37,500 nt of DNA from Chromera velia (taxonomy: Eukaryota; Sar; Chromeraceae), in NCBI GenBank assembly GCA_018398765.1, contig JAHBMJ010000247.1, forward strand, positions 1 to 37,500, read 5' to 3'. Under the pieces are notes generated by a model that saw only the letters and a list, made by a program, of their open reading frames with translations, was not told the DNA's origin and searched no databases. Shown here one piece after another: positions 2,444-28,930 of the stretch (positions are counted from its first letter, which is position 1; every line of letters begins with the position of its first letter). A program made the position numbers and the translations under genes.

Positions 2444-2475
2444 CCGGGCAGGAAGGAGCATCACGTGACAGAATA

Positions 2476-4039
2476 GTCGCAAGAAGGACGGCAAGGACGG
2501 CGTTAGCAACGGTGGAGGCGGAGGCAGGGTGGTCGTATCGGTTGGTGGATGCAAGGGAAGGAAGAGGGAAGGGAGAGCAGGAGGAGACATGCACCATCCG
2601 TATATTTATCGATATTATTATATATTGATGTTGCATGCATAGAGGCCGGATGGAAAAGAGTTTGTAGAGCTAGAAAAAACATGCAACAGACTATGTGCAA
2701 ATACGGAAAATGCACGCAAATTCCTTTCTGACATACAGTGCATGTAGCCTACCACTTTTGTTCCTTTTCCCCTGTGCATTTCTACAAACCGAGCCGGAAT
2801 ATCCGATTTCGCCGATTGTCACCTAAACTGGCCAGGGTACTAGGGGAAGGGCGGGACTACAGCATACACTGCATGCGGCCTACACTAGTGCTAATCATTC
2901 ATGCACAATTCAAAAGAGGACAACGGTTACCATTCTCAAATGACAAGAAAATGACAGTCTGTCTTCAGTGGGAAAGAAGAAGCACTTTAATGTCTGCTGA
3001 CTTGTCATGAAGGTCTACCCGGCACTTGATCAACGCAATGAAGAGAACGGTTGCAAAAAGGACGGCAGGGACGGCATCAGCAACGGTGGAGGCGGAGGTG
3101 GGGTGGTCGTGTCGGTCGGTGGATGCAAGGGAAGAAAGAGGGAAGGGAGAGCAGGAGGAGACATGCACCGTCCGTATATTTATCGATATTATTATGTATT
3201 GATGTTGCATGCATAGAGGCCGGATGGAAAAGAGTTTGTAGAGCTAGAAAAAACATGCAACAGACTATATACGCAAACATAGAAAATACATGCAAATTCC
3301 TTTCTGACACACACTGCATGTAGCCTACCACTTCTGTTCCCTTTCCCCTGTGTATTTCTGCAAACCCAGCCGGAATATCCGATTTCGCCGATTGTCACCT
3401 AAACTGGCCAGGGTACTAGGGGAAGGGCGGGACTACAGCACACACTGCATGCGGCCTACACTAGTGCTAATCATTCATGCACAATTCAAAAGAGGACAAC
3501 CATTGTCAAATGATAAAAAAATGATAGTCTGTCTTCAGTGGGAAAGAAGAAGCACTTTAATGTCTGCTGACTTGTCATGAAGGTCTGCCCGGCAGTTGAT
3601 CACCGCGGTGAAGAGAACGGTCGCGAGAAGGATGGCAGGGACGGCGTCAGCAACGGTGGAGGCGGAGGTGGGGTGGTTGTGTCAGTCGGCCGGTGGATGC
3701 AAGGGAAGGAAGAGGGAAGGGAGAGCAGGAGGAGACATGCACCGTCCGTATATTTATCGATATTATTATATATTGATGTTGCATGCATAGAGGCCGGATG
3801 GAAAAGAGTTTACAGAGAAAAAACATGCAACAGACTATATGTGCAAACATAGAAAATACATGCAAATTCCTTTCTGATACACACTGCTTGTAGCCCACCA
3901 CTTCTGTTCCCTTTCGCCTGCACATTTCTGCGAACTCAGCCGGAATAACCGATTTCGTCGATTGTCACCTAAACTGGCCAGGGTATTAGGGGAAGTGCGG
4001 GACTACAGCATACACTGCATGTGGCCTACACTAGTGCTC
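2476..4039 (+). repeat. Tandem repeat, ~573-bp unit, about 2.7 copies
   Basis: The landmark GGATGCAAGGGAAG occurs at 2547, 3121 and 3694, giving a period of 573-574 bp. Unit 1 runs 2476-3048, unit 2 3049-3621 and unit 3 3622-4039 (cut short). The copies look roughly 90% alike. Each contains a GGTGGAGGCGGAGG stretch, the palindrome-rich TTGCATGCATAG, and the marker CTGGCCAGGGTACTAGGGG. Open frames inside the units are short and shift between copies, so I do not call genes. The array starts about 30 bp after the right arm of the inverted repeat. Confidence 0.9.
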
Positions 4040-5589: not shown

Positions 5590-5891
5590 AGAAAGATTTA
5601 TATGTGATGTAACGGCCCTCAGGCCACAGGCACACAGCACTCTTACGTTACTCCTGTTTCTAGAGGTTGTGTCAACAGAGTCTCTTTCTCAACTTTATAT
5701 GAGCAGCAGTCTCTTGTTTTATCTGACTCCTCAATACGAATTTAATTACTGCAATGCATGCATTTGCATACATGCATTTAATTCTGCATGCATGGATTTG
5801 CAAGATATCCACGCGCTCGGTCTTGGCTCAATGGAAGGACGCCACGCCGCGGAGCCGGTTGGCTGGTGCCGGTCCCACTGCGCGTCTTTCT
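5590..5891 (-). repeat. LTR of the copia-type element (3' LTR in element orientation)
   Basis: It starts AGAAAGAT and ends GTCTTTCT, so the ends form a short inverted repeat AGAAAG/CTTTCT rather than the usual TG...CA. It contains the palindrome-rich stretch ATGCATGCATTTGCATACAT. The target-site copy ATTAT lies directly outside at 5585-5589. Confidence 0.93.
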
Positions 5892-5956: not shown

Positions 5957-6316
5957 TCATACAAATTCTTTGCCTGGCCAGCAGGGTTTTGTTAGTGCGT
6001 TACCCATCTGAACTTGACGCCTATACCACATCACTTTCCCCCCAGTCCTGCCCAGTTCTTGGATCACGAAGTCCAACATCCCTTGGGATGTTCCGTCTGC
6101 TGCGACCCCCGATCTCAACTGTTCAAACAGGGGGTTGCAATCGGTAAAGAAAGTGACTAGTGGTTCGGTCCCCCACATCTGTGTTGACAGGGATTTGATG
6201 CATGGGAGATGTTTGACTACGCTTTCGAATGCGGTGGCTTCAGCTGCTGTGCTGCTCCCATGCTTGTGATTATATTTTTCTGTATGCCAGCTTATACAAT
6301 TCTCCCATAGATTCAC
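5957..6316 (-). pseudogene. RNase H part of the copia fossil
   Basis: The minus-strand frame carries the copia-type RNase H signature: SSTAAEATAFESVV resembles the SSTEAEY block, followed later by WYRRQVQMGNALTK, resembling the V-x-W...M-A-D-x-L-T-K end. It sits next to the 3' LTR, as expected. It is a fossil fragment. Confidence 0.8.
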
Positions 6317-6580
6317 TAGCTCTAACGCCTTCTCGGGTGTCCATCCTTCCTCTACGAGGAAAATCAGCTAACCCAGCCTCCCACTGTAGGTCTTGCGGGA
6401 ATAGGCGGAGTCAGGCATGATCGCTAGCATCATTCTCTTCAAACGGTTCAGTGCTCTCATACAGAGGGGCTCTTTCTTTTCTTTGAGCATTTCTATTACT
6501 CTGATGCCTGCCCGCACAATCCGTCTGCAAGGCCGTGTGGAGTGATAGCTCAACACATCAGCCCATACCCGTCTGTTTGG

Positions 6581-7297
6581 TCACGTCCTCACCATCCAGT
6601 GAGGGACTCCGTTGATGCTTCTCATCAGGGGTTCCAACCTTCTTTCCTTCTCTTTCTCCATTGCAGGTTCAAGCTCGGCTGCTCTGACTTCTCCCCCCTT
6701 TCTTTTCTCCCCCAAAACCCTCCATATGGCATCCGTGTTCACCCCTCTGCAGTAGGAGTCTTGGGAGATTTCGGCTGTACTATGGGAGAACATGAAGTCC
6801 ATACCTGCATATTTGATTGATGACTGAGGGGGGAGCTCCCGCAGGTGCCCCCAATCGAACTTTGTCTTCAGAAACTCGATCTCTCCCTCCATCTCCTTTT
6901 TTCCTTTTCTTCCCCCAAACACGTCGTTAATCCAGTTGATCTGAACACTATCAGCAGGCTGTCCAGATTCTCCTACCTTAATCGCGACCCCCGTTTCTAC
7001 GCGTTTGTAGCCTGCCTGTCCTTGCACTTCGGCAAGGCTCTTATCGAATATGTTTCCTGAGTAGGGCATTCCATAGAGGCCCTTCTCAATCAACCGCAAC
7101 TCTCCCAGCTTGATGGCCAGGGCGGCTCTGTGCAGCTCTGCACAGTCTTCATCATTGATGTCATCATAGGGGTTTGTGTCTGGGATTTTAGGCAGCCAAT
7201 CAGGGATGATAACGGCTGCGCATTTCTCGTTTCTGTCAGGGGCTGTAAGGAATGCACTAAAGATGTCTCCGGCGAACAGATTCAGAGAGAAAGTCAA
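6581..7297 (-). pseudogene. Reverse transcriptase part of the copia fossil
   Basis: The minus-strand frame shows the copia RT landmarks in order: an ODVxxAFL-like block (AGDIFSAFLTAPDRNE), the LYGMPYSG block corresponding to LYGLKQAP, and the INDVFGG stretch in the position of the catalytic YVDD block. Family assignment rests on this order; the frame is a fossil fragment. Confidence 0.8.
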
Positions 7298-8570
7298 AGA
7301 AAAGATAGCAAAGATCAGAATAGCCTAGACAGAAGGTGTGCCAACATAAGTATCGACCGCCTTCTTGTCCGTGAAACCCTTACCAAAGCACCTCGCTTTC
7401 GACTTTCTGTTGATTCCCTGCCTCTGCCTTCCTTCGTTCTCATCTCCAGTTCTTTTCATCCTTCCTTTCCTGCCTTTGTACTTCTAGGGCTGTTCCCCCT
7501 CTCTGTCGTACTGCAGCCTGTCACCCTTGCCCATGGTTTGTCTTGATTGTGCTGCCTTCTCTTCTTCCTGTCTGTTCTCTTCCTTCTCTTTCTCTACCTG
7601 CTGGGTTTCCTTTTCTTTCCATGTCAGCCTCCAGCCTATTTGCATGACAGAGTCAACTTCCTTCCTATCGACTACCCTGCCCAGAACCCCCTTACCTACA
7701 ATGTTCTTCAACCACTCGTCTCGGCACGCGACATCGAAGTCCCCCCTTGCGACCTCCTCCGGGAGTGCAGGAGTCTGGGTGGACCCCTGCTTGAAGTCAT
7801 CGAGGACCGTGAGTAGATGCTCAGGGTCGGGGCCCAGGTAGAAGCAGTCATGGGTAGGGGCAAGGAAGAAGACGTTCTAAGCGGGAGGTCGCTCATCCAG
7901 GTCAAACCCAGGGGGTCCCCCACTAGATTTCTCTCCATTATCTCTCGTCTCTTCCTGCTCTGCCTCCCTGTTCCTTCTTTCTTCACCCAACTGCCCACCA
8001 GTCAGAGCATCAGGTGCAAGATGATTCTCTCCAAAAAGAGAATCGTTGTCGTTGCTGTTGTCTCTACCCCCCGCAGCTTGAACTTCACCCCCCTCTGCTT
8101 GATCTCCGGATTGTCAGTGCCACCCCCCTGGCTTGATAGCCCCAGAGGGATTTGGGGTATGAACCGAACCGACGTTTCTATTCGGCTTTGAGGGCTGCTA
8201 GCTTGGTTTTTCTGTGGCGGTTCTTTCTTTCCACAAACCCGAGTGGCCCCTTTTCTCCTGCAGGGTTATCGAGGAACGTCATGCCTCTGCGTTCAATGAA
8301 ATCTCCTAGTGGTTCTCCATGAAATTCGGGTGCCTTGTCATATCAGATTCTGCCTGCTACGGCTTTCAAACCTTCCTTCTAGAATTGAACATGATCCCCA
8401 AACGACTCCATAAACTCAATGTGGTCACGCACTCCATCAACGGAGTGGTTACGGGAGTTGAGGGGATAGTCGAAATCGAGGCCACTATACTCATCTAATA
8501 CACTCAGGCAGCATGCATAAGGCCCGTTGACCTCATCATCATTTGGGAACCAGTGATCGAGTTGTATGAT

Positions 8571-9083
8571 TTAGAAGGGCCCACCCGCATCCTCATATTG
8601 GGTGGGGACAGGTGTTAGAGTGGGAATGGTTGTGTTTTTGAGGGAACACAGCCGGCACTCTGTCTCAAGCCTTTTCCAGTCTTCAGTCCTTGCGTGCATC
8701 CCCCTGCTTGCCAGTGTGGGCTCTAGTTTGTCTTGACCGACATGTTCGAATCGTCTGTGATGTGCCCTAAGTTTCTCAAAACTGATTGTTCTCTCTCTGA
8801 TTGCCCATGCCTCCCCAGTCTTCTGCATTGCTTCTTTGACTTCGTCTGCTGTGGGAATGGATGTGGTTGTGAATGAAAGGTTGGAGGTGGCGTCTCCCTT
8901 AAGATTCTCAACTACCACCTCAACAAGAAAACCCCTCGCGTCTCGCACAATCACGTAGGAGTCCTTTCCCTCACGACGGAGGAGGGTTTCCCCCTCCTCA
9001 TGATCTTCCCACATCAGATAGGGGACTGGGTCTTCAGTCAGATACACCCACAAGAGCAGAACCTTCCATCCTTTCTCTCTCAC
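8571..9083 (-). pseudogene. Gag-pre-integrase / integrase start of the copia fossil
   Basis: The minus-strand frame contains HHRRFEHVGQDKL followed by ECRLC about 28 residues on, the His/Cys pattern of the zinc-binding GAG-pre-integrase domain found in copia polyproteins. The catalytic integrase core expected at about 7298-8570 is only weakly recognisable. Confidence 0.7.
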
Positions 9084-9665
9084 TCAATTCTTTTGGGCAA
9101 TGCAAGCGAGACGAGAGATCTGAATTTTCTTTAGGGATTTTTGCAGAGCCACTCCGAATGAACCCTCACACGGCTCACTCCAGACTACCATCCCCCCAAG
9201 CTCTTTCTCCCAGCCAAGAGGTGTAGTCGTACATGAGTCTATGTGCATCCGTACAGACAGGCGGCCTGGCGGATCAACTTGACTGACCATTGACTGAACT
9301 TGTTTTGGGGGATCGGGTGGCTTCCTCTCGATCTCGTGCTCTGGAACTACGTACGCCTTGTGCGTCTCCGTCACAAACCAGGGCTTCGGTGCCCTATCAC
9401 GGAACTGAAACGTGATGCCCTGTTATTGTTTGATGATCCCTCCCTCCGCATCCTGAGAATATCACAAAGGGATAGAGAAAAGAGATGAGAAAGGAAGAAC
9501 AGTCATACACATATGCTGTCAAAAATGTTCAGAAAGGTGGCCTGCCTTCTGAAATGCTTTCCCAGTCAGGGCATTCTGCCCCCCAAATCTGCTGACCTCA
9601 TTGTAGTCAGGTGATTGCTCTTAACTTTTCCACTCGTCAGCAGCGTATGCCGCTTTTCCGTTGTA

Positions 9666-10792
9666 TCAACCGGGGCCACCTCCACGCACTGCCTGCATCC
9701 CTCCACGTCCTCTGTACGCCTGTGGACGCCCCCTGCCTCGAGGGTTGGATGAGGGAGATAAAGGGGACTGCTGCTGTGCCTTCGCCTTCTTGTCACGGCA
9801 GCATTGGGTGAAGTGCCCCGTCCTCTGACAGATGTTGCAATGAGCCGATATCCCAGGGCATTCGTTGTATATTAGCCACTCGGCATCATGCCCCCCCTTC
9901 CGACCATATCTGGAGCAGTCTTTCTGTTTATGGGATCCATTCTGTCCCTCTGCTCTCCCCTGCTGACTCTCTTGATAACCTCCTCTTCCTGACCCTGCAT
10001 TGCCCCTGCCTCTGCCTCCCTTGTGGCTTTTCCCCCTCGAGGGAAACCCTGCACCCCCAATAAATGTAACCTCCTCCTTCACAATGGGAGACTTCTGTTT
10101 GGGGGGGTTTGGCGTAGAGCCTTGTGCTTTGACCCAGATAGGGGGGCCACCAGGAGGCTCATTGATAGCGTTGGTATGGGATTTAGCAGTAAGCCTTTTA
10201 GCCTCCACCATCATCTTGTCATAATCCGACAGATCGTCCTCATCCCAATCATTCTCCATCTTCTTCTGGTTATACTGGGGAAAGCAAGCAAACATGGCCT
10301 CTCTTCTCAACGATATAAGGACATCGCTCTCTGCGCCACAATTCTTCATTTCCTTAACCAGGGTCTCAAAAGAGTCTACCATCAGTTGGAAGGATTTATA
10401 TCTGTATCCGTTATCGGTAAGGGTCCGCCACTGTCGAGCGTTCTATTTCTTCTTTGTTCACGAGGTCTCATCCAGAAGTTGTTTCACCTTGTCCCTTAAT
10501 ACGTCTCTCTACTTGACCCACTCAATCTTCCCACCGAAATGAAAAGTGGTGTCGAGAGGGTTTTTCTTTTGGTCAAACAACAATTGAATGGAATTGCCTA
10601 CGATGTAATGGTTACGGGTTGCTGCGTAAATTCTGCAGCATGACAGCTGGCTTGCCACTGAGCAATTTGCTCTTCTGAGGCACCAAACAGTTTCTGATCT
10701 CCTTCAGTCCTGTTTTTGCAAGAATCCCACCAGGGCTGAAAAGTGTTATTCGCTCCTAATACAGGGAAAGGCGAACCACTGGAGTCAGACAT
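9666..10792 (-). pseudogene. Gag region of the copia fossil, with zinc knuckle
   Basis: A minus-strand coding stretch next to the 5' LTR. Its later part is Gly/Arg/Gln-rich and holds CNICQRTGHFTQCC, a C-x2-C-x4-H-x4-C knuckle typical of nucleocapsid. The first part (about 10792-10598) begins with MSDSSGSPFPVLG and has a Trp-rich stretch like copia Gag starts. It is a fossil in more than one piece. Confidence 0.75.
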
Positions 10793-10812: not shown

Positions 10813-11114
10813 AGAAAGATTTATATGTGATGTAACGGCCCTCGGGCCACAGGCACACAGCACTCTTACATTGCTCCTGTTTCTAGAGGTTGTGTCAATA
10901 GAGTCTCTTTCTCAACTTCATATGAGCAGCAGTCTCTTGTTTTATCTGACTCCTCAATCTAAATTTAATTACTGCAATGCATACATTTGCATACATGCAT
11001 TTAATTCTGCATGCATGGATTTGCAAGATATCTATGCGCTCGGTCTTGGCTTAATAGAAGGACGCCACACCGCGGAGCTGGTTGGCCGGTGCCGGTCCCA
11101 CTGCGCGTCTTTCT
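10813..11114 (-). repeat. LTR of the copia-type element (5' LTR in element orientation)
   Basis: Direct copy of 5590-5891, the same 302-bp length, with the same AGAAAG...CTTTCT ends. About 16 sites differ, nearly all transitions. Target copy ATTAT follows at 11115-11119. Confidence 0.93.
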
Positions 11115-11324: not shown

Positions 11325-11772
11325 CTGTGTGCTAGCTGATATGCAGACTGAGCTAGCTAAGTTGGAGGATCCGAATTAAGATGGCCCCGTAAAGCATGTG
11401 GCGGGGGGCTCTTAGAACAATCTTAGATCGCCAAAATCGCTTTCGCGCGGGCCATTCGCGGGCCGCATCGAAATCGATCCATGCCGGGCAACAAAAATGT
11501 AATTAGCGGATGCACGGACAACATACGGACAACAGATGGACAACAGCTTTCACCGATCGAGTTGAGGTTTCTCAGTTTGTTTACATCATGAATTGTGTAC
11601 AAACGCGACACCCACAAAGACGGAGGCAACCAAAGTGATGCTCCAATGATGCTCCAGGGCCGGTGCGATGGGATGACCCAGAGGGACTGTCAAAAAGCGG
11701 ACCCCTCAGTCTGACTGTCTCCCTCAGTGGCTTGCCTTGCGCAGACGTTCTTCTTGCTGTCAACAAAGTAGA
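11120..11772. other. Intergenic: AT-rich, (TA)n, then upstream region of the MORN gene
   Basis: 11120-11300 is AT-rich, followed by (TA)13 at 11299-11325. From about 11400 the base composition rises in GC, with palindromes such as GCTAGCTGA near 11332. This part probably holds the promoter and 5' UTR of the gene at 11773. I see no clear TATA box. Confidence 0.4.
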
Positions 11773-13326
11773 ATGTCCACACAACTTGAAGACCCAGCCG
11801 GAGCGGCCTCTCTGGTGATTCATGGAACCCTGAGTCACCGGCAGGATTCTTGTCAACCCAAGCCTCCACTGCCCCCACCTCCGTGTCCGGTCTCAGATCC
11901 GTCCCCGCATCCGACTCCGATCTCAGGGGGCGGCGGGAGCATGGGAGTGGGGGTTGATACGTATTCTGGACACATTAAGAATGGCGTTGTCCACGGGGAG
12001 GGTGTGCTGACGTACGCAAATGGACATGTATATGAGGGACAGTTTTGCGATGGAAAGAAACACGGAATGGGTACATACCGCCGCACGGACGGGTGTGTAT
12101 TCACAGGGAGCTTTTTAAACGACCTGGCGCAAGGGTCAGCAAGTCTCACTGCTTCACGTCCCATGCATGCAGGTCTCTTTGTTTTCTCGGCGGCCTTCCA
12201 TGCTTTGGAGTTGTTGCTCACCATTTCTCTTTTTGCATTTCTTTTTACCTTTATGCCGAGGGGCACCGGCCTCACCGCGTCTCTTTTCCTTGTCTGCTCA
12301 GTGCTCATGGTTTGGGATTGAATGCCCCGCGCCCCTCTCATTTGTGCACCCACGTCTTTTCGCTTGGGTGTGCGTGCAGCTACGGAGTAATGACGGATGG
12401 CAGGGGATGTGAGATGTTCCGTGGGACATGGAAAAACGACACGGTGAGTGAGGGGGGCGCTTCATGAATGTAAATTAGTTAGGGTATGTGAGGTTCCAGA
12501 ATAGTGTTGACTTGTGTACGAGCATGCATGCGACTTTTCCGGGTAGAACATAGGCAGCACGTTGATTCAGCATTGAGGCAGCCTTCATGTCTAAGGGACT
12601 CCGTCTTGGACTAGTTCATGTACATTCATGCACTGGCTGACGACAAATCCCCGACAATTGTGCGTCTCCCTCTGTCCGTCCGTCGGTCTGTCTGTCTGAC
12701 TGACTGTCTGTCTGTCTGTCTGACTGTCTGTCTGTCTGTCTTTCTGTCTGTACGCACCTCGATCAATCTGTCTGTCTTTCATGAAGAAAAGTAGAGAGAA
12801 GAAAGAAACACATAGTCTGTCTTTCAGGTCCGCTAGCTGCCGACTTTGTCTGAGTTGCTGTGTATTTTTTTTGTCTTCTTTCTTTGTTTCTTTAATTCTT
12901 TCTTTGTTTCTTTGTTTGTTTCTTCCTTCCTTCCTTCCTTCCTTCCTTCCTTCCTTCCGTTCGTTCGTTCGTTCGTTCTTTCTTTGTTTCTTTCTTTCTT
13001 TTTTTCTTTCTTTGTTTCTTCCTTTCTTTCTCTCTCTCTTTGTTTCTTTGTCGTGATGTTCTTTAAATTTCTCTCTGCTGCCTTTTTTTCTCTTTTTGTT
13101 TGTTGCCACAGCGTTCGATCAGGAGGAGAATGAGGGAAAGAAACCATGTAATCTGTCTGTTTGTAGAAAGAAAGAGAAAGAGGGAAAGAAGGAACGATTT
13201 AGTCTGCCTGCCTGCCTTCCTGCCTGCCAGTTTCTGCAGCCTGTGAGCACGTGCGAGGCCGGAGCCCCGGAGCCCCCGGCCCCGGCGCCCGCAGCCGGAG
13301 GTGCAGTGGAAGAGCCCAGGACCAAG
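11773..13326 (+). CDS. MORN-repeat protein gene, exons 1-3
   Basis: Three exons join in frame: 11773-12134, 12380-12443 and 13240-13326. Donors are GTCAGC, GTGAGT and GTCTGT; acceptors end TGCAG. The start is the first ATG of the frame. Residues 1-60 are Pro-rich. From residue 64 come MORN repeats (YxGxxxxGxxHGxG): YSGHIKNGVVHGEG (64), VYEGQFCDGKKHGMG (86), VFTGSFLNDLAQGYG (109, split by intron 1 at the GG|C codon), and the start of a fourth (EMFRGTW, 132). Exon 3 is Pro/Ala/Glu-rich. MORN arrays bind membranes or lipids and act as scaffolds in alveolate cytoskeleton and division structures; the specific role here is unknown. Exon 3 ends in phase 0, so the gene continues, probably to 16057. 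Introns 2 and 3 are packed with (CTGT)n and (TTCC)n repeats. Confidence 0.78.
12444..13239 (+). repeat. Intron 2 of the MORN gene, full of tetranucleotide repeats
   Basis: (CTGT)n occurs at about 12680-12780, (TTTC)n at 12880-13060, a pure (TTCC)9 run at 12925-12957 and (GTTC)4 at 12958-12977. There are also two degenerate pieces of the SINE-like family (12775-12830 and 13075-13200). The large lysine/arginine-rich frames on the minus strand here are products of these repeats, not genes. Confidence 0.75.
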
Positions 13327-18699: not shown

Positions 18700-19669
18700 T
18701 TATCGTGGAGGTGCGACTCGGACGGCTGCCCGATTCACCTGGCGAACTCTCTCTTTCCATTCATCGGACGGCTCCTCGAATTCCAACTGAGGGATACGGA
18801 AGGGATCCGAGACGGGAGGCAATTCTGAACCTCGTGGCCGCCCATTCGCCTGCGTTTCTTGCATGAGGGACCCTGGGGTCTCGCCTGCAAACGGAGAAAC
18901 TCCTGAGAGAAGCCGTGGTGGCAGTCCCAGAACATCACAGCGAATCTCTTCAACAACATCGTCGATGCTCGAAGCCTCTCCCGACCCCCCGATGCCACCC
19001 GGCCCGCCGCTTGTCGAAACCGCGTCTCGTCCAGTGAGGAAAGACATGACTGCGGGATGAGTCACAATTTTTCTCAGAAGAGCGGGAGGGATGTGCCGAG
19101 GGGCGGCGACGCCCACCCCGGCTGCGGACTTCCCCCGGACCTTCTGGGTGATGGCGCCGAGGAAGACCAGACACTGGCTCCGTGTGCAGACTCGGAAGCG
19201 TAAACACGCAAGCCTGCAAAGACAGATGGAGAAAGAGGTGATCGAACAGACAAAGAGACCGCCAGATAGCGGAACAGACAGAGAATGCTGCCCTTTCTCC
19301 CTCTTCTGTCAATGGTGGTTGCGTTCTTTCCTTCTTTCCTTCATTACCCTGTTACTTTCTTTCTGCTTTCGTTGTCCCACTCCCTCCCTCCCTTCCTTGC
19401 CTTCCTTCTGTCTCTCTGTCCGTCCGTCTGTCCGTCTGCCTTCTCTCTGTGTCTCGCACGCATGCAGCCACACAGAGACAGGAAAAAAGGCGGACAAAAA
19501 GGTAAACACGCAGACCAGCTGTTTTTCTCTTTTCCTTAATTTTTTCAGATACAGACCAGACAGACAACAAAGAAAGACTCACACACAAAAGAACGACACG
19601 GTCACTCAGACAATGTGGGCAGGAGGCTCAGAGACAGACGGAGAGACAAAGAAACTTATTCTCTCTTTT

Positions 19670-19740
<71 letters not shown>

Positions 19741-21486
19741 CAGAGAGAGAGAGAGAGACAGAGAGACTGTAGGGTTTCTTTCCTTCCTTGTCTTCATGAA
19801 CACAACAGACAAAAAGAAAGAAAGCAACAAAGACAAAAGAACATCACGGGAACTCAGACAGACAGACAGACAGACAGATTGCGAGATGGAGACATAAAGA
19901 AACAAAGAAAGAAGCCAAAGGGAGAAAAACAACACAGAAGACCCTCACATGATTTCTTCAATTTCTCTTGCCGTCAATCTCTTCACCCTCGCTGTCGTCC
20001 AACACGCCACGCTCAGTTGGCACACGGCCTTTTCGACTTTTGTCCACAGCCGGTACGACGTCAGTCCGAAAGAGTTTCTCAACGAAGAGGTTTGCGGAGT
20101 GGAGGGAGAGAAGGAGGACAGAGAGGGGGTACCACTGCCGCCTAGTGTTTCTGCAGAAGACTCTCCTCCTCTTTTCTTCTCCCCGTGTTCAAGCAAGGAG
20201 ACGGCACTCCTCCAGACTCGCCAGACATCCGTATCTAGGTGTTCCTCTCCCCGCGGTTCCGCTAACGGAGCGATCTGCCCCAATGCGCTGTCTACCTGCG
20301 TACACAAGTTTATCGCATGCTTGCTCATGTGTGCAGTTTTGTGTAGTGAATCATGCTCCCCCTATGGAAAGTCATGCTCGTCAATATGGACGAAAGCTGC
20401 ATGCACGTGCTCGCACGGGACACATTCATAACTGCGGACAACAAACGCGACAGTCATGTTTGCTGTCGTCGATTCGTATGGATGTATCCCTTCCACCTCA
20501 GAAAGGAAAGCCAACAAAAAGTTTGGAATGGACCCTCTGATCCACTCAAAGAAAGTTTTCGTGCAAGAATTTCTGTTTTTGCCCGTGTTCTTTGGATCGT
20601 TCCGTGTCTGCCTCTGCTCTTTCTATTGGCCTTCTGGCACGAATCTCGGAAATCAAGTGGATAGACAATCAAAGGCATGATATGATCAGTGGAGACCGTG
20701 GCGTCCGTTTCACGCTTTCAGCAACCCCCCTCACCGGAAATGAACTTGCCGACCTGATCTTCATCGAGCCTCATAGCCTCTTCAATCAGTCTCTCGTTCT
20801 GCCGCTCAGTCTCCCGAGCGACCCCGGCCTGTCGGGCAAAGACCTGTTGCCTGAAGGAGACGGTCGTGGAGGCCATGCGAAGGAGGGGCAGGCCGATGCG
20901 AGGAACGTCCGCAGTACTCGTGTCTGCGTCCATGCAGCTCTGCAGCGACTCCCTGCAAGTCCAGACAGAGCATGAGTACATTACGCATCTACAGCGACAC
21001 ACTGCTAAGGCAAAAGAAGAAGGCTGTCACTCAGGCACTGGGTGTATGGACGCAGACAAACTATCTGGAATTTTTTCTCTCTCTTGTGTGCATTTCATGA
21101 AAAAGCAGAGACAGACTGACAGAGCGTCTGCCTGTGCACTGAGAGAGACGGGCCAATTAGAGTTGTACATCCCGAACGCTGCTCTCCCAGTCTTCATCTC
21201 CAGCATGCGCCTTTTCATCTGAGAGAGCGCATAGTTGGATCGCCTGGCCAGTTCGTTGGTGAGGTGCACAGCTGTTCTGAAGGGAATGACACGCACTTCC
21301 TCAACTGTCTGTGCTTCCTCTTCTTCTTGTACGTCAGAAGAGGAAGAGGACACAGAAGAATGGTCACTTTTGCTCCTCCCTCTTTTCCTTTTGGCGCCTG
21401 AAGCAGTGCGGTCAGTTGCATCACTCGTCGATGGGAGGGCACTGTTGGAGGGGATTTTCACCGAAGAAAGAACGCTGACGGCGGCC
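18700..21486 (-). CDS. Exons 9-12 of the large gene, 3' end
   Basis: Exon 9 (21486-21169) is basic then acidic, with HLTNELARRSNYALSQM. Exon 10 (20952-20735) ends at a strong GTGAGG donor but in phase 1, while exon 11 (20295-19949) opens at a strong acceptor in phase 0. A small exon between 20734 and 20296 would resolve this. Exon 11 ends AT|GTGAGG and joins exon 12 (19213-18700) in phase 2. Exon 12 begins LACLRFRVCTRSQCLVFLG and ends RVAPPR plus TAA. Confidence 0.6.
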
Positions 21487-24400
21487 CTGAAAGACGGAAG
21501 GAAGAGATGGAAGAAGTGAAGAGGGGGGGGCAAGTGCGGCAGCATAGAAAGGTGAAGACCCCAACAAGCAAATAAATGTCAGGCTATTGAATAAGTGCGA
21601 GATTGAAGAATGACTGCGTACACGAAAACGGAGGGACAGTTGCGTGAGCAGAAAGCCAGTCTGGGAAGGGAGCAAACAACTGAGAAAGAATGTCACAGGA
21701 CCATCCAGAGGAGGAAGAACGAACAAAGCAAGCAAAACAAGGCACAACAGCGGACGCTGAGCGGTATTCTCCATGAAAGAAACCGAGAGGGAGGCAGAGA
21801 AATGACTCAACAATCGAGGCTTTCACCCCTCTCTACCTCTCTCTGAGATGGTCACTTTTGTCACTCACCCACTCACTCACTCACTCACTCACCGGACTTT
21901 GGCAACGTCATTGACTTGTTCGACTTCGAAGAGTCTCTTTTCGAGAATTCGCACAATCTCACGACACACAAAAGCGCTCAGTCTCAACGAATCTGTCACC
22001 ATTTCCAGACTCGGACTTGACGCATCAGATGCACCATCTTTTTTCTCTTCGGTCTGTCCCTCCTCCTCTTGCTCTAAGTCATCCTCTCCCACTTCAAGAA
22101 ACGCCCGAAAACCAGACCCCCGTTTTCCCTTAGTACTCTCATCTCCCTTTGAAGACCTCCTTTTTTTCTGTCGTCTCTTCAATCTCTGAAGCTTCCGAGA
22201 TCTCTGAGAACTGAGGTCCACCACAAGAGGCGTCAACGCAACTAGAGCAGCTACCAACTGAGGCGCACCAAGTGAGCGAACACTACTGCCCCCCCGCTTC
22301 CCCCCTGGAACTCCACTTACCCCCCCCTGCTCACCACCCTGAGGATTCTCCGCTGCCTGCGCACAGATCTGTTGCACCAACGGAATGTCCGGAATATTCC
22401 ATGCCACCCATCCCGTTCCACTTGCTTCCACATCGCCGTTCTCCTCTCCTCCTCCTCCCTGTACATAGCCATCGGCTGGGTTGATGTCAAACTCGAAATC
22501 AGGAGATTCGATCAGCATGCGCGCCGTCTCACAAAGCCAAAAGTCCACTAAACTCGACGGAGACGGAGACGCAACGGAGCTGCTGAGGCTCGACTTTTTC
22601 TTCTTTTTCGCTCCTGCCGTCCCTTTCTTTTGCCCTCGCGACCGCCCCTCAGTTGCGGCGTTCAGATTCTTCCCACCGATGCTGTCCCCAGCAATGAGGG
22701 CTTCGTGAAAAGCGCGCTGAGGAAAACATCCTTCACACACACTGCGTGGGCAAGAGGGCACCAGAACAGATAGACGAAAGGAAAAGACAAAACAATGAGT
22801 GTCAGGGAAGAACGGAACTGTCGACGACAAATCCCGAAAGCTCTGTGGACACACAATTCACCTTTTTCAAAATGTATGACACATATCAATGCTTTTCGTT
22901 GTGTATTAATTCACCCAGCACACGAACCATGTCGACAAATGGTACGGTCCCACTGCCTCCATCAAATGTAGCAACAATTATCAACCCCAAAAGAATCGTA
23001 CACACACGTCAAACACGCTGACTGAGTGACTGACTGACTGACCACAGAGTTGCCAGTTGGTCCAACCGGAGGGAAGTCGGGTTTTCCCTTTGTTTCTCTT
23101 TTAGCCACAGAGTCAGACGAGGTCGGAAATCCTCCAGATGTTCCCAGAATGCCTCGCCATCTGGCAGACACGCACCCCCAGACACCCAAAAAGCATCCAT
23201 CTCCGCAACCCTCTTCTTCCACCTCGACGCACCTACAGAGCATGCCACAGAGGCTCGCACAAGTTCATGCGAGCTGAGGGGACAGGGGTCCTCAAAGAGC
23301 TTTTCTGTCTCTGTCTCGGTCCCTGAGCCCCCCTCCAGCCTTTCCATCTGCCTGTCGAGCGCGTCCGTCACACTCACCGCTAACCGGACCCCAGCCTCAG
23401 ATGGCACAGCCTCTTGAGCGATCCACCTGCTCATGCATGCAGTTTGGTGACAACAGAACACACGCAGGTAGAGGGGTTCAAAGAGGTAGACAGGCAGGCA
23501 GAACGACGCCGGACTACATAAACACCAACTTGGAAGCAAAAACGCAACAGTCGAAAGAAACAAAACCTTCTTTCTAGGAAGTTTCCCTCCCTGTTCAGGC
23601 TTTTTGTGTGCCCAGACTCAGTCAGTCTGCTATCAACCCGCACCAGAACATCCATCCATCCATCCATCCATCGAGGCAAACAAAGACAGAAAGAGGCTTT
23701 GGAAGGAACCAGCCGTCAGACCCTTGCAAGGGCATCTCGAACGGACACAGGAAGCAAGCAAAAATAGAGTCCTAACGGTGACTGTACGGAAGACAGAAAG
23801 AGAAAAGAAGACAGGTTGGACTGACAGCAGAGTAAAAAGGTTTCGTGTCAGGAACGGAACCGGCACGCCACTTTCGAATGTGTCCAGAATTCTCTGATAA
23901 GTGTCCGAAAAGAAAGGCTCTGGAGGACCGTCGTCAGAAAACACATCCTCCTCTTCACCCACTTCCCGCAGCATTTCCTCTCCCCCTTCTTGTGTTTGTC
24001 CATCCATAGGATCCTCTGAGGAACAGCTGCTTTCCATTTCTTCATTGGAATCTTTCAATTCTGTATCCCCTCTTACGACTCCCAACGCCTGTCGCGGAGG
24101 AAACCAGATGTCGCCCCTCCCCTTCTCCCCTCTTTCAAACCGGGTGTCCCCCTCCTCCTCGAACTGACGAAACCGATAAAGTCGCCTCTCGATTTCCTCA
24201 CCCAGCAGTAGATTGACTCTCTCCCCCCTTCCCCCGATTTCATTCAGACCCACCCTGGAAGACAGATAGACGCAACACAAAGAAAAAACATCCATAACAG
24301 TGTGTAGTGTATACATGAGAAGAGGGTATCGTATCTGACCCCCCCCAACTAGTCCCCTGCTCGACCCCATGTCAATCAGACTGCTGAACACTTTCTCACG

Positions 24401-26509
24401 GAAGTCTTCCCAACTGATGATGGGGAGGCAGCATGAAACAGAAAATGGAGAAGTTCCATGGGGAGGGGAAGTAGACACCAACATTCACCGAGTCGCCAGA
24501 GCAGAAAAAGAGAAAGAAGAAGAAGAAGTAGAAGAAGAAGAAGAAGAAGAAGTGAACAAGTAAAGGTTCCTTCCGCACTGTATGGAGATAAGATACGCAG
24601 ATCCACGGAAAGAGCAACTTGTCCCCTTCGCAAAGAAAGAATAGAAGAGAGAAAAAAAGGAAACATGGAATTATACAATCATGCACTTAATTGAAGAAAA
24701 TCCTTCATCACTCACTCGCTGACTCGCTCACTCACTCACTCACTCACTCACTCGAAAACTCACAAACTCAATCAAAACATTGACTGACAGCATTTCGAAA
24801 AGCTCCACGTTCTTCATTCTCTTTGTTCGTGAATGCACATAGATGTCCGACTCGAACGCAGACACCCACGCGTTGGAGAATCCATCTGAAAAAGACTCAT
24901 TTCCCCCTTCCCTCTGTCTCTGTAACGCTGCTCTACCTGCTGCTCTCACAATTGTCACAGCGTCGTGATCTCTCATCATCATCTTCCATCGAAAATTTTC
25001 CTCGAGATCCTCAAGCACAGCCTTCATCCGTCCAGTTCCTTTCCCTTCTCCTTCTGCACCCCTAAAGTCACCTGTTCCATTCTCCCCATTTGACACCAAA
25101 CCACCGTCCCCCTGCTGATTCTCAAACTCCTGCCCCTGTCCCCCCACAGGCTCTCCAACGTCTGCCTGCACGTGCTGCAGACCAAGAAACTTCTTGATCC
25201 TCTCTGCCTCAGACTGAAGCAGTTCCCAGAACTCGGCATCGCAGAACCCCATGGCGGCCACGCAATCTCTGCGACGGCCACACAAAACCACACAGGTATA
25301 GACACACACCGGATCGTGTGATACGTACACGAACCACTCACGTGCCTAGCCAATCATGAGAAGTGCACAGTGGAGGATGGCCGGGGGGCAGGGTGTAGCA
25401 TGTGAGCCAACAAACAAGAGATCGACAATACACAAGCAAGGGAAAAAAGGGTGGAGGGGGAGAGCAAAAAAAGGTATCGATCGATCATGGATCAGAGCAC
25501 GGTTTGGCAAATGAAAGGAAAGAAAAGTAGAAAAAAACGAATGGATCACCCTCCTCAGAGGAAACGTCAAAGACAAATTGTTTGAACCATCAGACTGACA
25601 AAAAAGGGACGAAGAACGCAACAAAAAAACACAAAAATGCAGAGAATTGCTTCTGCTTCCACTCAACTCGTGAAGGGCACCTGCGTCTCTTTTCTTCCTA
25701 TCCGTCGTTCATTCCTGTGATTGCCGGTCTTCACTACAGTCAGCCTTCTTCCCACGAGAATCTCTGTGCCTTTCTTTTCCACAGCCTTTGAGAAAATATG
25801 CTGTCCTGCCTGTCCTCACCACTGATTCTCTCTCCGTTCACCACTGGGAAAAAAACAGGTTGAGTAGACTGACGCGATGCTTGCGAGATTCTTTGCCGAG
25901 AAGAAGAAAAAGTCAATGCTTCCCGGTGTCCCTGTAGTGCGCCTGAGGGCCAGAGGCTTCTCCCTCGTGATGGCCAGAACGGCAGGTGACGCACCCCGTC
26001 TCTGCAGGCTTAGGTGCACAGGAGAGACTCTCCAACCTGTGCGAGGGTCCTCAAGGATCGGGATCAACAGGTTCGCTTTCTTTGAGAGACTCATCATTTG
26101 AAATTTTCCCCCTGGCCGACCCTGGGAGAGACGCAGCCGGACTGCAATCTCCTTCAACACCCCGCCACAGAAACGTCGAAAGACAGGGAGACGCACAGCA
26201 ACCATCCTGCATAGATACATGGCATTCATGGGTTCATTCAACCCATTCACGTGCATCAATGAATGAATGCATGCATGCATGTATGTGCAAAGGACCTGTC
26301 AGTCCAGGAATCCATCCGGTGTCTCAATCGAAAAATGAAAACAAATACGGAAGGTTGACAGACACTTGGAAAGAAAGCATGGTCGTGAGAAAGGAGTCAT
26401 GACGAGAGAAAAGGTTGGAGGACGAACCAGGGGACCCCTGCCTTCCGCAAAGCGCAATTTCAGAAAGGGCGAGTCGATTGGTGGACGAAAAATCAAAGCA
26501 GAAGAAGAG

Positions 26510-26551
<42 letters not shown>

Positions 26552-28930
26552 CTAACAGGAATGTGCAGAGCTCGTGTGCCGTCAAAGCCCGAAGCCGAAG
26601 CGGGTACCCCTGCGGATTCAGAGCAGCTCCACCCAGTTGGGCATCAGGAGCCGCCCCCGAGGGCCCGCCAGAGCCAGAAGAGGAGGAGAGTGGAATCACG
26701 GAAAATCCACAAGAGAGAAAGAACTCGCAGATCAAATCCAGTGCGGTTTCCCATTCCCGCAATTCTGCCCTTGAAACAAAAACTTTTTTCACCCCACCCG
26801 CCTTTTGCTTTACTTCTCCCACGGGAATTTCCTCGACGCTATCTTCGTCTTCCGTTCCACGACGTACCATCTCTCTATGGAGACAGCTCAGAACAAAAGC
26901 AGCACACTGATGAATGATATCATACAAGTACAAAACATCTCGAATGGTTCCGTAAGCGGATCGGAAACCCCAAAGGTCCTCTTCGTTTTTCGCATACTGC
27001 GCTAGTGCTCGCAGCCACACGCTCAGGTCATTAGAGGACCCGAAAAGCCGACGCACGATTTTCTGTAAGTGCAGCTGGGAGGGCTTTGGGATTCGTTTGC
27101 CTTTTGATATGTTATTGACAAGAAAACGGCGGAGCACGGCTGCGGCTGTGGCATGACCAGCAATGTCGAACAGGTCTGCTAACTCGGCAATTCTCGACAC
27201 AGTTGTTCCGATATCATCTGAGGCTGTGAGAACATCATCCAAAGATCTGCCGCTCATGATCTTCTCAAATCGATCCTGCTTTTCAATCTCTTCATCTGGC
27301 ATGTGACGCATTCTCTTCAAGTCGGCCGGGATTGAGCGCCCAGCTCTTGAGAAGCCCAGACGCATGATCTTGAAATTCGCGGGGGAGAAGTACAGCCACG
27401 TGTTCAAACCCCCCGCGTCTGGGTACATGACAGAAGGGTCCGGCAGTTCCCCTGCCCTGCTCAGGGTTTCCCTCTCGCTCCTGCTAGGGAATTCGACGTT
27501 CGCATTTTTGTCGGCCGTCCGTACGACCTCCCCCATCCGCAACCGCCGCCGCACTGCCAGAAGTGCCTTGTCCAACACTGGGCCTGTGTAGCCTAGTGAC
27601 CCTATGTGCCAGCTGCAGAGGGAAAAGAAAGAAAGTCGACAGGAAAGAACAAGAAAGAAACAAGCGGAGGAAAGACGGAAAAGAAGAGCACTGCTGGGCC
27701 TGAAAGGAAGTGCGACTGTTCACACAATGTACAGGTGTAAGCGGACATGGACAGCAGACGTGCACTGTCCTGCCATTTTTGTTTGCAAAGAAGCTCTATT
27801 TTCTTGTGTTCGTGTACCTGTTGAATGATGAACGATCTCTCGAACTGACGATTGACGGTCATTTTCTTCCTGAATCCAAGGAAAAAAAACAACCTTAGAC
27901 GACACCCAAAAGGTGGCAAACTCATTTCACTGATCCACGCTTGCACACACAATCCCACTCACTCACCCACTCAGTCCCTCACTCACTCACTCACTCACTC
28001 ATTCAACCCCCCAGTGACTTACATGAAATGGGCAAGCTGTACCGCATACACAGCCATGGCCCCCTTGGCAGTCATGAGATCCCCTGTCCCCGTCGCCCCA
28101 CCCGGAGACGGCCCCTCCCACTCGAGCTCCAGGTCCAGCAGTTTTCCGAATCTGCTCACGAGGGCCTCCAGCACCCCCCTCATTTCCTCATCCAGCTGCA
28201 CACACACGCCCTGCTGCGACTGAGCGCCCGTGCCCCCCATGACAAGCGTCGCCCGCGTCTCCGGGTCCATCGGAGGGCCGTGACGAAGATCAAAGACTCG
28301 ACGAACAATCCGAATAAAGTCGGATAGCTCACGTGCAGTGGTATGTCGCTCTGGATCCGCTAGGTGCCTCTGTACCTCTTTGCAGAGATGACGAAACACA
28401 GGGTCGCTTTGAAGTCGCTTCAATTCGAAAGCGAGAAGGTTCGGTACCACCTTCCTCTTCTGATCGTGGCATTGTTCATACTCATACCGGTCGAGTGCTC
28501 TGCCCAGGGCCTTGAATGTCAAAAGAAGCTGTCGGGGACCTAGACCGTCTCTGTACATGTCCGCAGTAAAGAGAACGTCCTCTGGCACCTGAGCGTCGGT
28601 GAGAGCAAACTCAAGAGCATTCCTTCGCTCTTTCTGTTCAGGTGTTGGGAGGATGGACAGGGGATCCAGGCCCTCTGCACCCCCCAAACGCACACCTTCA
28701 TTGATGAGCTCTGGAGACGGAAAGTCCCCCGAATGCACGGAGAGGGAAAATGAAGACCCCCTCACACGGCTGACTGATTTTTCAACCGATCTCCTTTGAC
28801 CCCCAAATGACAAAACCTGAAACGCAAGGCAGACCTGGTGGTGCGAGAGCGCAACGACCAGGAGGAATATTTTTAAGAGGAGAGAAAGAGAGCTGCTGCG
28901 TCCCTCCGTCTCCGTCCTGGCGAGTCGCAT
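18700..28930 (-). CDS. Large plastid-directed helical protein of unknown family, 12+ exons
   Basis: Minus-strand exons: 28930-28023, 27612-26557, 26206-25991, 25268-24789, 24413-24315, 24254-23826, 23426-23043, 22741-21893, 21486-21169, 20952-20735, 20295-19949, 19213-18700 (TAA stop). The sum is about 5.8 kb, ~1,940 codons. Exons 1-10 join in frame with GT-AG borders. The step from exon 10 to 11 is one base out of phase, so a small exon or another border is missing there. The product starts with a signal peptide plus transit-like stretch, so a plastid location is likely. The body is mostly alpha-helical with acidic linkers. Helical stretches such as LSDFIRIVRRVFDLRH, QLVAALVALTPLVVDL and HELCTFLL recall the loose ~38-residue repeats of organelle RNA-binding FASTK/heptatricopeptide-type proteins. 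That is a guess; I saw no clear RAP domain. Confidence 0.68.
19214..19948 (-). repeat. Intron 11 of the large gene with microsatellites and a SINE-like piece
   Basis: It contains (CA)16 at 19675-19706 directly joined to (GA)n to 19760. At 19793-19880 lies a reversed partial copy of the SINE-like repeat (GTTCATGAAG and GTCTTTGTT blocks on the minus strand) next to (CAGA)n. Confidence 0.7.
21863..21892 (-). repeat. GTGA array starting at the exon 8 splice donor
   Basis: On the minus strand the intron begins GTGAGTGAGTGAGTGAGT and continues to about 21863. The donor consensus itself is the repeat unit. Confidence 0.85.
21893..22741 (-). CDS. Exon 8 of the large gene
   Basis: 849 bp with phase 2 at both ends. 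It holds low-complexity linkers (KKKKKSSLSSSVAS, GGGGEENGD), the helical APQLVAALVALTPLVVDL, a very basic stretch (RKLQRLKRRQKKRRSS) and a final helix LRLSAFVCREIVRIL. The basic stretch could contact RNA or be a linker. The donor is the first unit of a GTGA array (21892 down to 21863). Confidence 0.7.
23043..26206 (-). CDS. Exons 3-7 of the large gene
   Basis: Five exons (26206-25991, 25268-24789, 24413-24315, 24254-23826, 23426-23043), each starting with one base of a split codon and ending with two. Donors are GTCACC, GTCAGT, GTATAC, GTCAGT and GTCAGT. Exon 4 begins near DCVAAMGFCDAEFWELL. Exon 6 has an acidic linker (EEMESSCSSEDPMDG). Exon 7 includes SSHELVRASVACSVGASR, which looks like a helical repeat. 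Introns are 150-740 bp, and one (24790-25267 is exon 4; the next intron 24414-24788) carries GAA and CTCA repeats. Confidence 0.68.
26557..27612 (-). CDS. Exon 2 of the large gene
   Basis: 352 codons between acceptor CTCTGCAG and donor GTTAGT. It begins WHIGSLGYTGPVLDKAL and contains helical segments (LAQYAKNEEDLWGFRSAYG, ALDLICEFFLSCGF) and a Gly/Ser-rich linker near its end. The intron after it begins with a (CT)n/(GA)n tract (26510-26544) directly downstream of the donor. Confidence 0.75.
28023..28930 (-). CDS. Exon 1 of the large gene: bipartite plastid presequence and first helical part
   Basis: The first ATG in the open frame is at 28930. Residues 1-15 are charged, then SLLLKIFLLVVALSHHQ is a signal-peptide core, followed by VCLAF with a Phe at the likely cleavage zone, and a basic Ser/Arg-rich stretch (RRSVEKSVSRVRGSSFSLS) typical of a transit peptide. 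From about residue 75 the mature part begins; it includes GLGPRQLLLTFKALGRAL and ARELSDFIRIVRRVFDLR. The exon ends CAT TTC AT|GTAAGT, phase 2. Confidence 0.75.

Follow-up and report, generated by a model that had tools for sequence, protein, structure and literature searches.

Why should almost every intron of one long gene interrupt the reading frame at the same point of a codon? The question is raised by a predicted minus-strand gene of Chromera velia, located at 28930..18700 in the first 37,500 nucleotides of contig JAHBMJ010000247.1 (the whole of this stretch is called the window below). Our best model of the gene, built from splice consensus and open reading frames, has 11 exons, 10 introns and 1954 codons with no internal stop. 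From intron 1 to intron 10 the phases run 2,2,2,2,2,2,2,2,0,2, which means that nine of ten introns are in phase 2 and one is in phase 0. The near-uniform phase 2 described in the initial annotation is thus borne out, together with the coordinates and the strand of the gene. Its count of 12 exons and ten introns of the same phase applies if a 48-nt piece at 24413-24366 (minus), inside intron 4, is real, in which case 10/11 introns are phase 2, but the best model stays at 11 exons and 9/10.

Taken alone, the uniform phase is a mild oddity among thousands of genes. As a background we used the 148 introns of 17 other predicted genes that hold four or more each; 41% of these introns are in phase 0, 23% in phase 1 and 36% in phase 2. 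This gives a probability of 0.0028 for at least nine of ten introns in any one phase, and of 0.00066 for phase 2 alone. The comparison gene models are our own predictions and some of them are surely wrong; runs of N are present in L030, L033, L037, L041 and L045, and short ones in L036 and L046. Clustering of phases by gene is not significant in the other predicted genes (p = 0.086). One predicted plus-strand gene in a RAP region (L032, 4891-9501) has 8/9 introns in phase 0, and these do not share a common repeat position. The gene across the divergent promoter had been offered as a control that uses all three phases. Its predicted introns are indeed mixed (1,0,1,0,0,1,1,0,0), but they use two phases and not three.

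What sets the gene apart is the place where its introns cut the protein. Without any gap, the nine phase-2 junctions can be aligned at codon 10 of a 37-residue helical repeat of HPR/OPR type (…ANTL/WAFAKLG…, the slash marking the junction), immediately ahead of the Trp conserved in helix A. The helical modules supposed in the initial annotation are supported, the phase-2 junctions falling at one codon of such a repeat. The nine junction windows, compared over the 12 residues that precede the intron, score +0.10 against -0.91 (standard deviation 0.14) for other windows of the same protein, and 0/4000 random and 0/4000 shifted sets reach this value. When the protein is scanned with the gene's own junction windows, leaving out one at a time, seven junctions rank 1 to 70 of 1910 positions. 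An outside repeat profile, built from 94 segments found in 19 other predicted genes and tested in 35 registers, places offset 10 as the best register for five of the nine phase-2 junctions (303, 655, 766, 926 and 1480) and as the second best for junctions 1069, 1197 and 1784. The phase-0 junction of intron 9 does not fit the repeat site (p = 0.80).

The same register is obtained when profiles are compared with each other. With hhalign, the nine junction windows match 28 repeats of other genes with a probability of 90.8% (P = 1.2e-6) and with the junction at position 10, while 40 random sets give at most 0.8%. The input was ungapped, since alignment by MAFFT broke their register. Taken by themselves, the six weaker junctions reach 27.5% (P = 6.5e-4) in the same register, compared with at most 2.1% for 60 random and 60 shifted sets. 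We also looked for the best common offset of the nine phase-2 introns with a leave-gene-out profile, and obtained z = 11.8 with 0/5000 random sets as good. For 16 other predicted genes, 27 such tests give z of at most 2.6 and a lowest p of 0.01; the null for L037 is distorted (z = -3.4). Introns at most 36 residues from either end of the protein were excluded from this test, so that 16 of the 17 genes entered it.

In the other genes 45/169 introns lie inside a recognisable repeat (p < 0.002; two of the 45 may be one intron counted twice in the L040 copies described below), and they are spread over many offsets and all phases, with 0/45 at offset 10 and phase 2. In the studied gene, 6/10 introns are repeat-internal at the same threshold and 5/6 of these are at offset 10 and phase 2. 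The outside profiles omit the segments of the tested gene, but the segments were chosen with a profile that included them. Within this sample, the lock of introns to one repeat site belongs to the studied gene and not to the repeat family.

The repeat itself was characterised in genes found through their RAP domains. A search of the genome for the RAP family (177.8 Mb, 4040 contigs) gave 21 matches up to E = 0.1, 18 of them above the cut-off, and 10 kb were fetched around 20 of the 21; PMC8190603 reports 28 RAP proteins. A profile seeded with an HPR/OPR consensus and run iteratively against the predicted proteins collected 100 segments with the consensus FNPQDIANTLWAFAKLGYYDPAFFDALCEKAMKK and with an exact spacing of 37 residues in L029 and L028. 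Three of the segments come from the studied gene, each with an intron at position 10. These three stretches pass the threshold of the iterated profile, which they had themselves joined, and again score highest when the profile is drawn from the repeats of other genes. By profile-profile comparison (the 90.8% given above) the studied gene has a repeat of 37/38 residues whose helix A follows a pattern like FNPQDIANTLWAFAKLG. Its recognisable copies are separated by low-complexity stretches, with no regular 37-residue ladder as in L029.

Against the PDB, the repeat profile (31 rows, 28 from other genes and three from the studied gene) matches 27 distinct sequences up to E = 1. They include RESC6 (8fn4, the top match at E = 7.2e-27), mL115 and mL113 (7pkt), mL123 (8a22) and the RAP-domain chains of 9g6k and 9i05, and the HPR/OPR-type matches range from E = 7.2e-27 to 8.7e-4; unrelated ones stand next to them, such as a chain named sc-CC-7-LI at E = 2.4e-9. 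The assignment of these proteins to the HPR/OPR type draws in part on PMC11079077 and PMC8190603. The studied gene has this repeat type in its junction windows in common with the HPR/OPR proteins and the RAP chains, but it differs from them in having no RAP domain or other Pfam family at the curated cut-off, and in that long low-complexity stretches break up its repeats.

A Pfam scan of the 1954 residues found no family at its curated cut-off, the sole listed match being TilS (E = 0.09, 13.5 bits against 21). The RAP domain (PF08373) is absent from the protein up to E = 1, and none of the 21 genome matches is on the contig of the gene. Residues 1-800 as a single sequence match no HPR/OPR chain in the PDB, with two weak unrelated matches at E of about 0.045. 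In a paralogue search in which only the best candidates were scored, the same residues give four matches up to E = 10, all of them the gene's own exons. The N-terminus has a hydrophobic segment, LLLKIFLLVVAL, followed by CLA-FQ, with the cleavage point placed by eye, and then by a Ser-rich, weakly basic stretch, which suggests import through a complex plastid. Judged by the repeat type and this N-terminus, the gene product, a long protein of HPR/OPR/RAP-associated type with predicted alpha-helical repeats, is probably an RNA-binding factor of an organelle, perhaps the plastid.

How could nine introns come to lie at one codon of a repeat? The best explanation, and one that we favour with some reserve, is an ancient tandem duplication of intron-bearing repeat modules followed by strong divergence. 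An ancestral repeat, or a small group of repeats, would have carried an intron at codon 10, and the protein would have grown through tandem copying of modules made of intron and exon. One phase would so have passed to every junction, each added symmetric 2-2 exon preserving the frame. Afterwards the protein may have changed until the repeats were hardly recognisable, acquired loops of low complexity and lost introns from some repeats, and one unrelated phase-0 intron would have been gained later. Descent from one ancestral intron would account for the use of one phase and one codon throughout, and also for donors that are weak on their exon side. In keeping with this reading, the last exon base is a T in 6/9 compared with 11/60 phase-2 introns elsewhere (p = 0.005), as expected when the protein repeat, and not the splice consensus, fixes the site.

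Several observations weigh against this reading. The exons are not detectably similar to each other, with no pair at E < 0.01 by blastn (best 0.019) or at E < 0.5 by blastp (best 0.52), and their lengths are uneven (199 to 1056 nt). On the far side of the junction, the next 20 residues are only weakly alike, as 134/4000 random and 84/4000 shifted sets reach their value. In the leave-one-out scan, junctions 1480 and 1602 rank 956 and 924 of 1910; with the outside profile junction 1602 reaches only p = 0.057. For the six weaker junctions, the match to the repeat is confined to positions 1-16. The seed profile of 100 segments held three from the studied gene itself. The gene also contains several intronless repeat-like stretches. 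Lastly, nine young HPR-type repeats spaced 37 residues apart lie in one predicted exon (L029:1309-2835, minus), so repeats in this genome have recently multiplied inside an exon, without introns.

The introns resemble each other in short, simple-looking stretches only (best 29 nt, E = 0.001). Compared with 237.5 kb of the genome outside their own places, they give matches at most 185 nt long and 65-96% identical (best E = 4e-8), which resemble simple-sequence runs. With such short intron matches and no clear exon similarity, a recent duplication of exons, or a single intron family that spread recently, is improbable. The growth by exon duplication proposed in the initial annotation is supported in part: the repeat-locked introns fit it, but BLAST-level similarity among the exons and a uniform exon length are missing.

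A serious alternative, to which we give clearly less credence, is parallel gain, that is repeated insertion at one codon of an already repetitive gene, at a site preferred owing to the structure of the repeat DNA, of chromatin or of RNA. Such gain accounts for the fixed site and phase without any exon similarity, and the repeat-like stretches that have no intron are what it would leave. The GTGA/GTCA arrays near four donors also hint at a shared origin or at a shared drift of the donors. Against it, the usual proto-splice AG is missing on the exon side, as AG precedes the intron at 0/9 phase-2 donors compared with 19/60 phase-2 introns elsewhere (Fisher p = 0.055). The introns share short matches only, and the absence of codon 10 with phase 2 among the 45 repeat-internal introns of other genes indicates that the repeat is no general hot spot of insertion. 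The simple forms of gain by one mechanism with a fixed sequence preference, which had been suggested for this gene, are weakened by the short matches and the lack of AG. Structure- or codon-specific intron gain is possible.

It is quite unlikely that the gene model is wrong, either because several genes were joined or because exon borders were misplaced. The chosen GT-AG pair ranks first at all 10 introns among the frame-keeping pairs within 80 nt. A home-made gene finder with no phase preference, trained on the 237.5 kb of genome, recovers the same 11 exons on the isolated region 29300-18501 except at junction 6/7, with the phases 2222212202. The finder and the ranking are partly circular, since the splice matrices took their start from the studied gene, which is also among the predictions used to retrain them. 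At junction 6/7 the finder shifts the borders by 8 and 11 nt and arrives at phase 1, whereas direct ranking prefers the phase-2 pair (11.7 against 9.7). On the whole window it joins upstream pieces onto exon 1. These two deviations and the 48-nt candidate exon speak for an error; one open frame over 11 exons, and peptides across the junctions in which a known repeat is restored, speak for the model. A chaperonin gene outside the training set served as a check of the finder, and its prediction is one continuous Cpn60_TCP1 match (positions 38-460 of 490, E = 2.4e-123), with intron phases of 0,0,0,2,0,0,0,2,0 and the last intron at the very end of the stretch.

Two candidate exons were considered within the gene. 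The 48-nt piece is symmetric and has a weak coding signal (log-odds +5.9 nats); it was present in the first predictor run and dropped from later runs. It is a possible cassette exon and probably the twelfth exon of the initial annotation. An extra exon near 27860-27809 was rejected, with coding log-odds of -1.4 nats and no strong phase-2 donor after the candidate, and exon 1 joined directly to 27612 gives a clean repeat across the junction.

Chance, meaning a gene rich in phase 2 whose alignment to the repeat we have overestimated, seems very improbable. The phase alone has a probability of about 0.003, and some 26,000 genes are predicted in Chromera according to PMC4501334; near-uniform phase is also seen in other genes, with 8/9 in phase 0 in L032 and 7/9 in the chaperonin gene. 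Against this, no set in 5000 equalled the register obtained with other genes' repeats, and phase played no part in the choice of the register. An introner-type origin, with all ten introns derived from a single mobile family, would suit one phase within one gene but is hardly credible, as the introns share no sequence with each other or with the 237.5 kb beyond short simple-looking matches.

Repeat-locked introns of the same phase are a classic sign of proteins made by exon duplication, best known from leucine-rich repeat (LRR) proteins. PMC6564038 describes LRR genes of Tetrahymena as arrays of 90-bp exons with nearly all introns in phase 2, attributed to exon duplication, while controls from the same genomes have no phase-2 bias. 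These genes and the studied gene are alike in coding for a repeat protein with nearly all introns in phase 2. In Tetrahymena the exons are exactly 90 bp, number tens of thousands and have conserved leucines, whereas the studied gene has unequal exons, no BLAST-level similarity and a helical repeat. In brown-algal ROCO genes there is one LRR per 72-bp phase-2 exon, and the gonadotrophin receptors are likewise phase 2 (PMC11378527). Both share with our gene phase-2 introns at one repeat position and symmetric exons. That paper describes strong shuffling and alternative splicing of the brown-algal LRR exons, unlike the old and diverged exons seen here, which hold more than one repeat length.

Measured by what marks in-phase repeat exons of the LRR type, the studied gene has one phase and one repeat position (9/10; z = 11.8), and it has neither a uniform exon length related to the repeat nor detectable similarity among exons. 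Phase-2 repeat exons are known from LRR genes, and the studied gene shows a variant of them in another repeat family, of HPR/OPR type. Among the papers listed by searches of the open-access literature, judged by title and the opening of the abstract, we recognised no report of intron placement in HPR or OPR genes.

Malaria parasites have an expanded set of these RNA-binding factors of organelles, whose HPR/OPR-type repeats diverge fast. Our results extend same-phase repeat-locked introns to an HPR/OPR-type protein of a photosynthetic relative of the apicomplexans. They also open a testable question, namely whether the comb of introns is common to orthologues, as expected if it is old and due to duplication, or is not, as expected from parallel gain. 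A tentative and rather doubtful extension is that the HPR/OPR solenoids of this lineage were first built from intron-bearing repeat exons, in the manner of LRR receptors, and that the studied gene is a surviving record. If this were true, the intron comb would keep the ancestral repeat frame despite the divergence of the sequence, and the repeats of such proteins could be aligned and counted by their introns where sequence comparison fails.

Table 1. Exons and introns of the predicted gene in window coordinates; junction peptides in brackets, with a slash at the intron.
Feature	Position	Strand	Remarks
Exon 1	28023..28930	-	start codon; ends phase 2 inside repeat
Intron 1	27613..28022	-	phase 2, 410 nt, repeat codon 10 (VQLAHFI/WHIGSLG); GTGA array 24 nt from donor
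Exon 2	26557..27612	-	phase 2 at start and end
Intron 2	26207..26556	-	phase 2, 350 nt (HELCTFL/MVAVRL)
Exon 3	25874..26206	-	symmetric 2-2, 333 nt, 111 codons
Intron 3	25269..25873	-	phase 2, 605 nt (KNLASIA/DCVAAMG); best match to repeat profile
Exon 4	24789..25268	-	symmetric 2-2
Intron 4	24255..24788	-	phase 2, 534 nt (VELFEML/VGLNEIG); GTGA array 37 nt from donor
Candidate optional exon within intron 4	24366..24413	-	48 nt, symmetric 2-2
Exon 5	23826..24254	-	symmetric 2-2
Intron 5	23427..23825	-	phase 2, 399 nt (RNLFTLL/WIAQEA)
Exon 6	23043..23426	-	symmetric 2-2; donor inside GTCA array, making this the least certain end
Intron 6	22742..23042	-	phase 2 (alternative phase 1), 301 nt (DQLATLC/VCEGCF); GTCA array at donor
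Exon 7	21893..22741	-	symmetric 2-2; gene finder starts exon 11 nt further in
Intron 7	21487..21892	-	phase 2, 406 nt (NDVAKVR/AAVSVL); GTGA array begins at donor
Exon 8	21121..21486	-	symmetric 2-2
Intron 8	20953..21120	-	phase 2, 168 nt (SAQADAL/ESLQSC); weakest repeat match, p = 0.057
Exon 9	20754..20952	-	start phase 2, end phase 0
Intron 9	20296..20753	-	phase 0, 458 nt; off repeat site, p = 0.80
Exon 10	19949..20295	-	start phase 0, end phase 2
Intron 10	19214..19948	-	phase 2, 735 nt (REIEEIM/LACLRF); contains simple repeats
Exon 11	18700..19213	-	terminal, stop TAA

The arrays at the donors form an observation of their own. In 4/10 introns (28022-27613, 24788-24255, 23042-22742 and 21892-21487) a (GTGA)n/(GTCA)n array in sense orientation lies 0 to 37 nt from the donor. 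The 237.5 kb contain 16 such arrays of at least four units on both strands in total, and at least three GTSAGTSA words occur in the first 80 nt of 1/169 other introns. The arrays look like donor sites multiplied by slippage.

Two further observations on duplication were set aside. A tandem copy at L040:4250-6998 (1,375 nt, 98.98% identical), which includes repeat exons and a phase-2 intron, was rejected as proof of the mechanism. The copies meet at a single N, and this is probably an unmerged contig overlap and so an assembly artefact. A reading of two repeats per exon was abandoned because the underlying mask is arbitrary.

Elsewhere in the window, the open frames at 5960-10442 (minus) resemble pieces of a copia-type retroelement, and the four of them that were scanned gave no match to Pfam at E up to 0.01. 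Long direct repeats, about 89-95% identical, are found at 2470-4038 and at 5590-5891 with 10813-11114. On the plus strand, an open frame at 11677-12318 contains MORN repeats (Pfam E = 2.4e-13).

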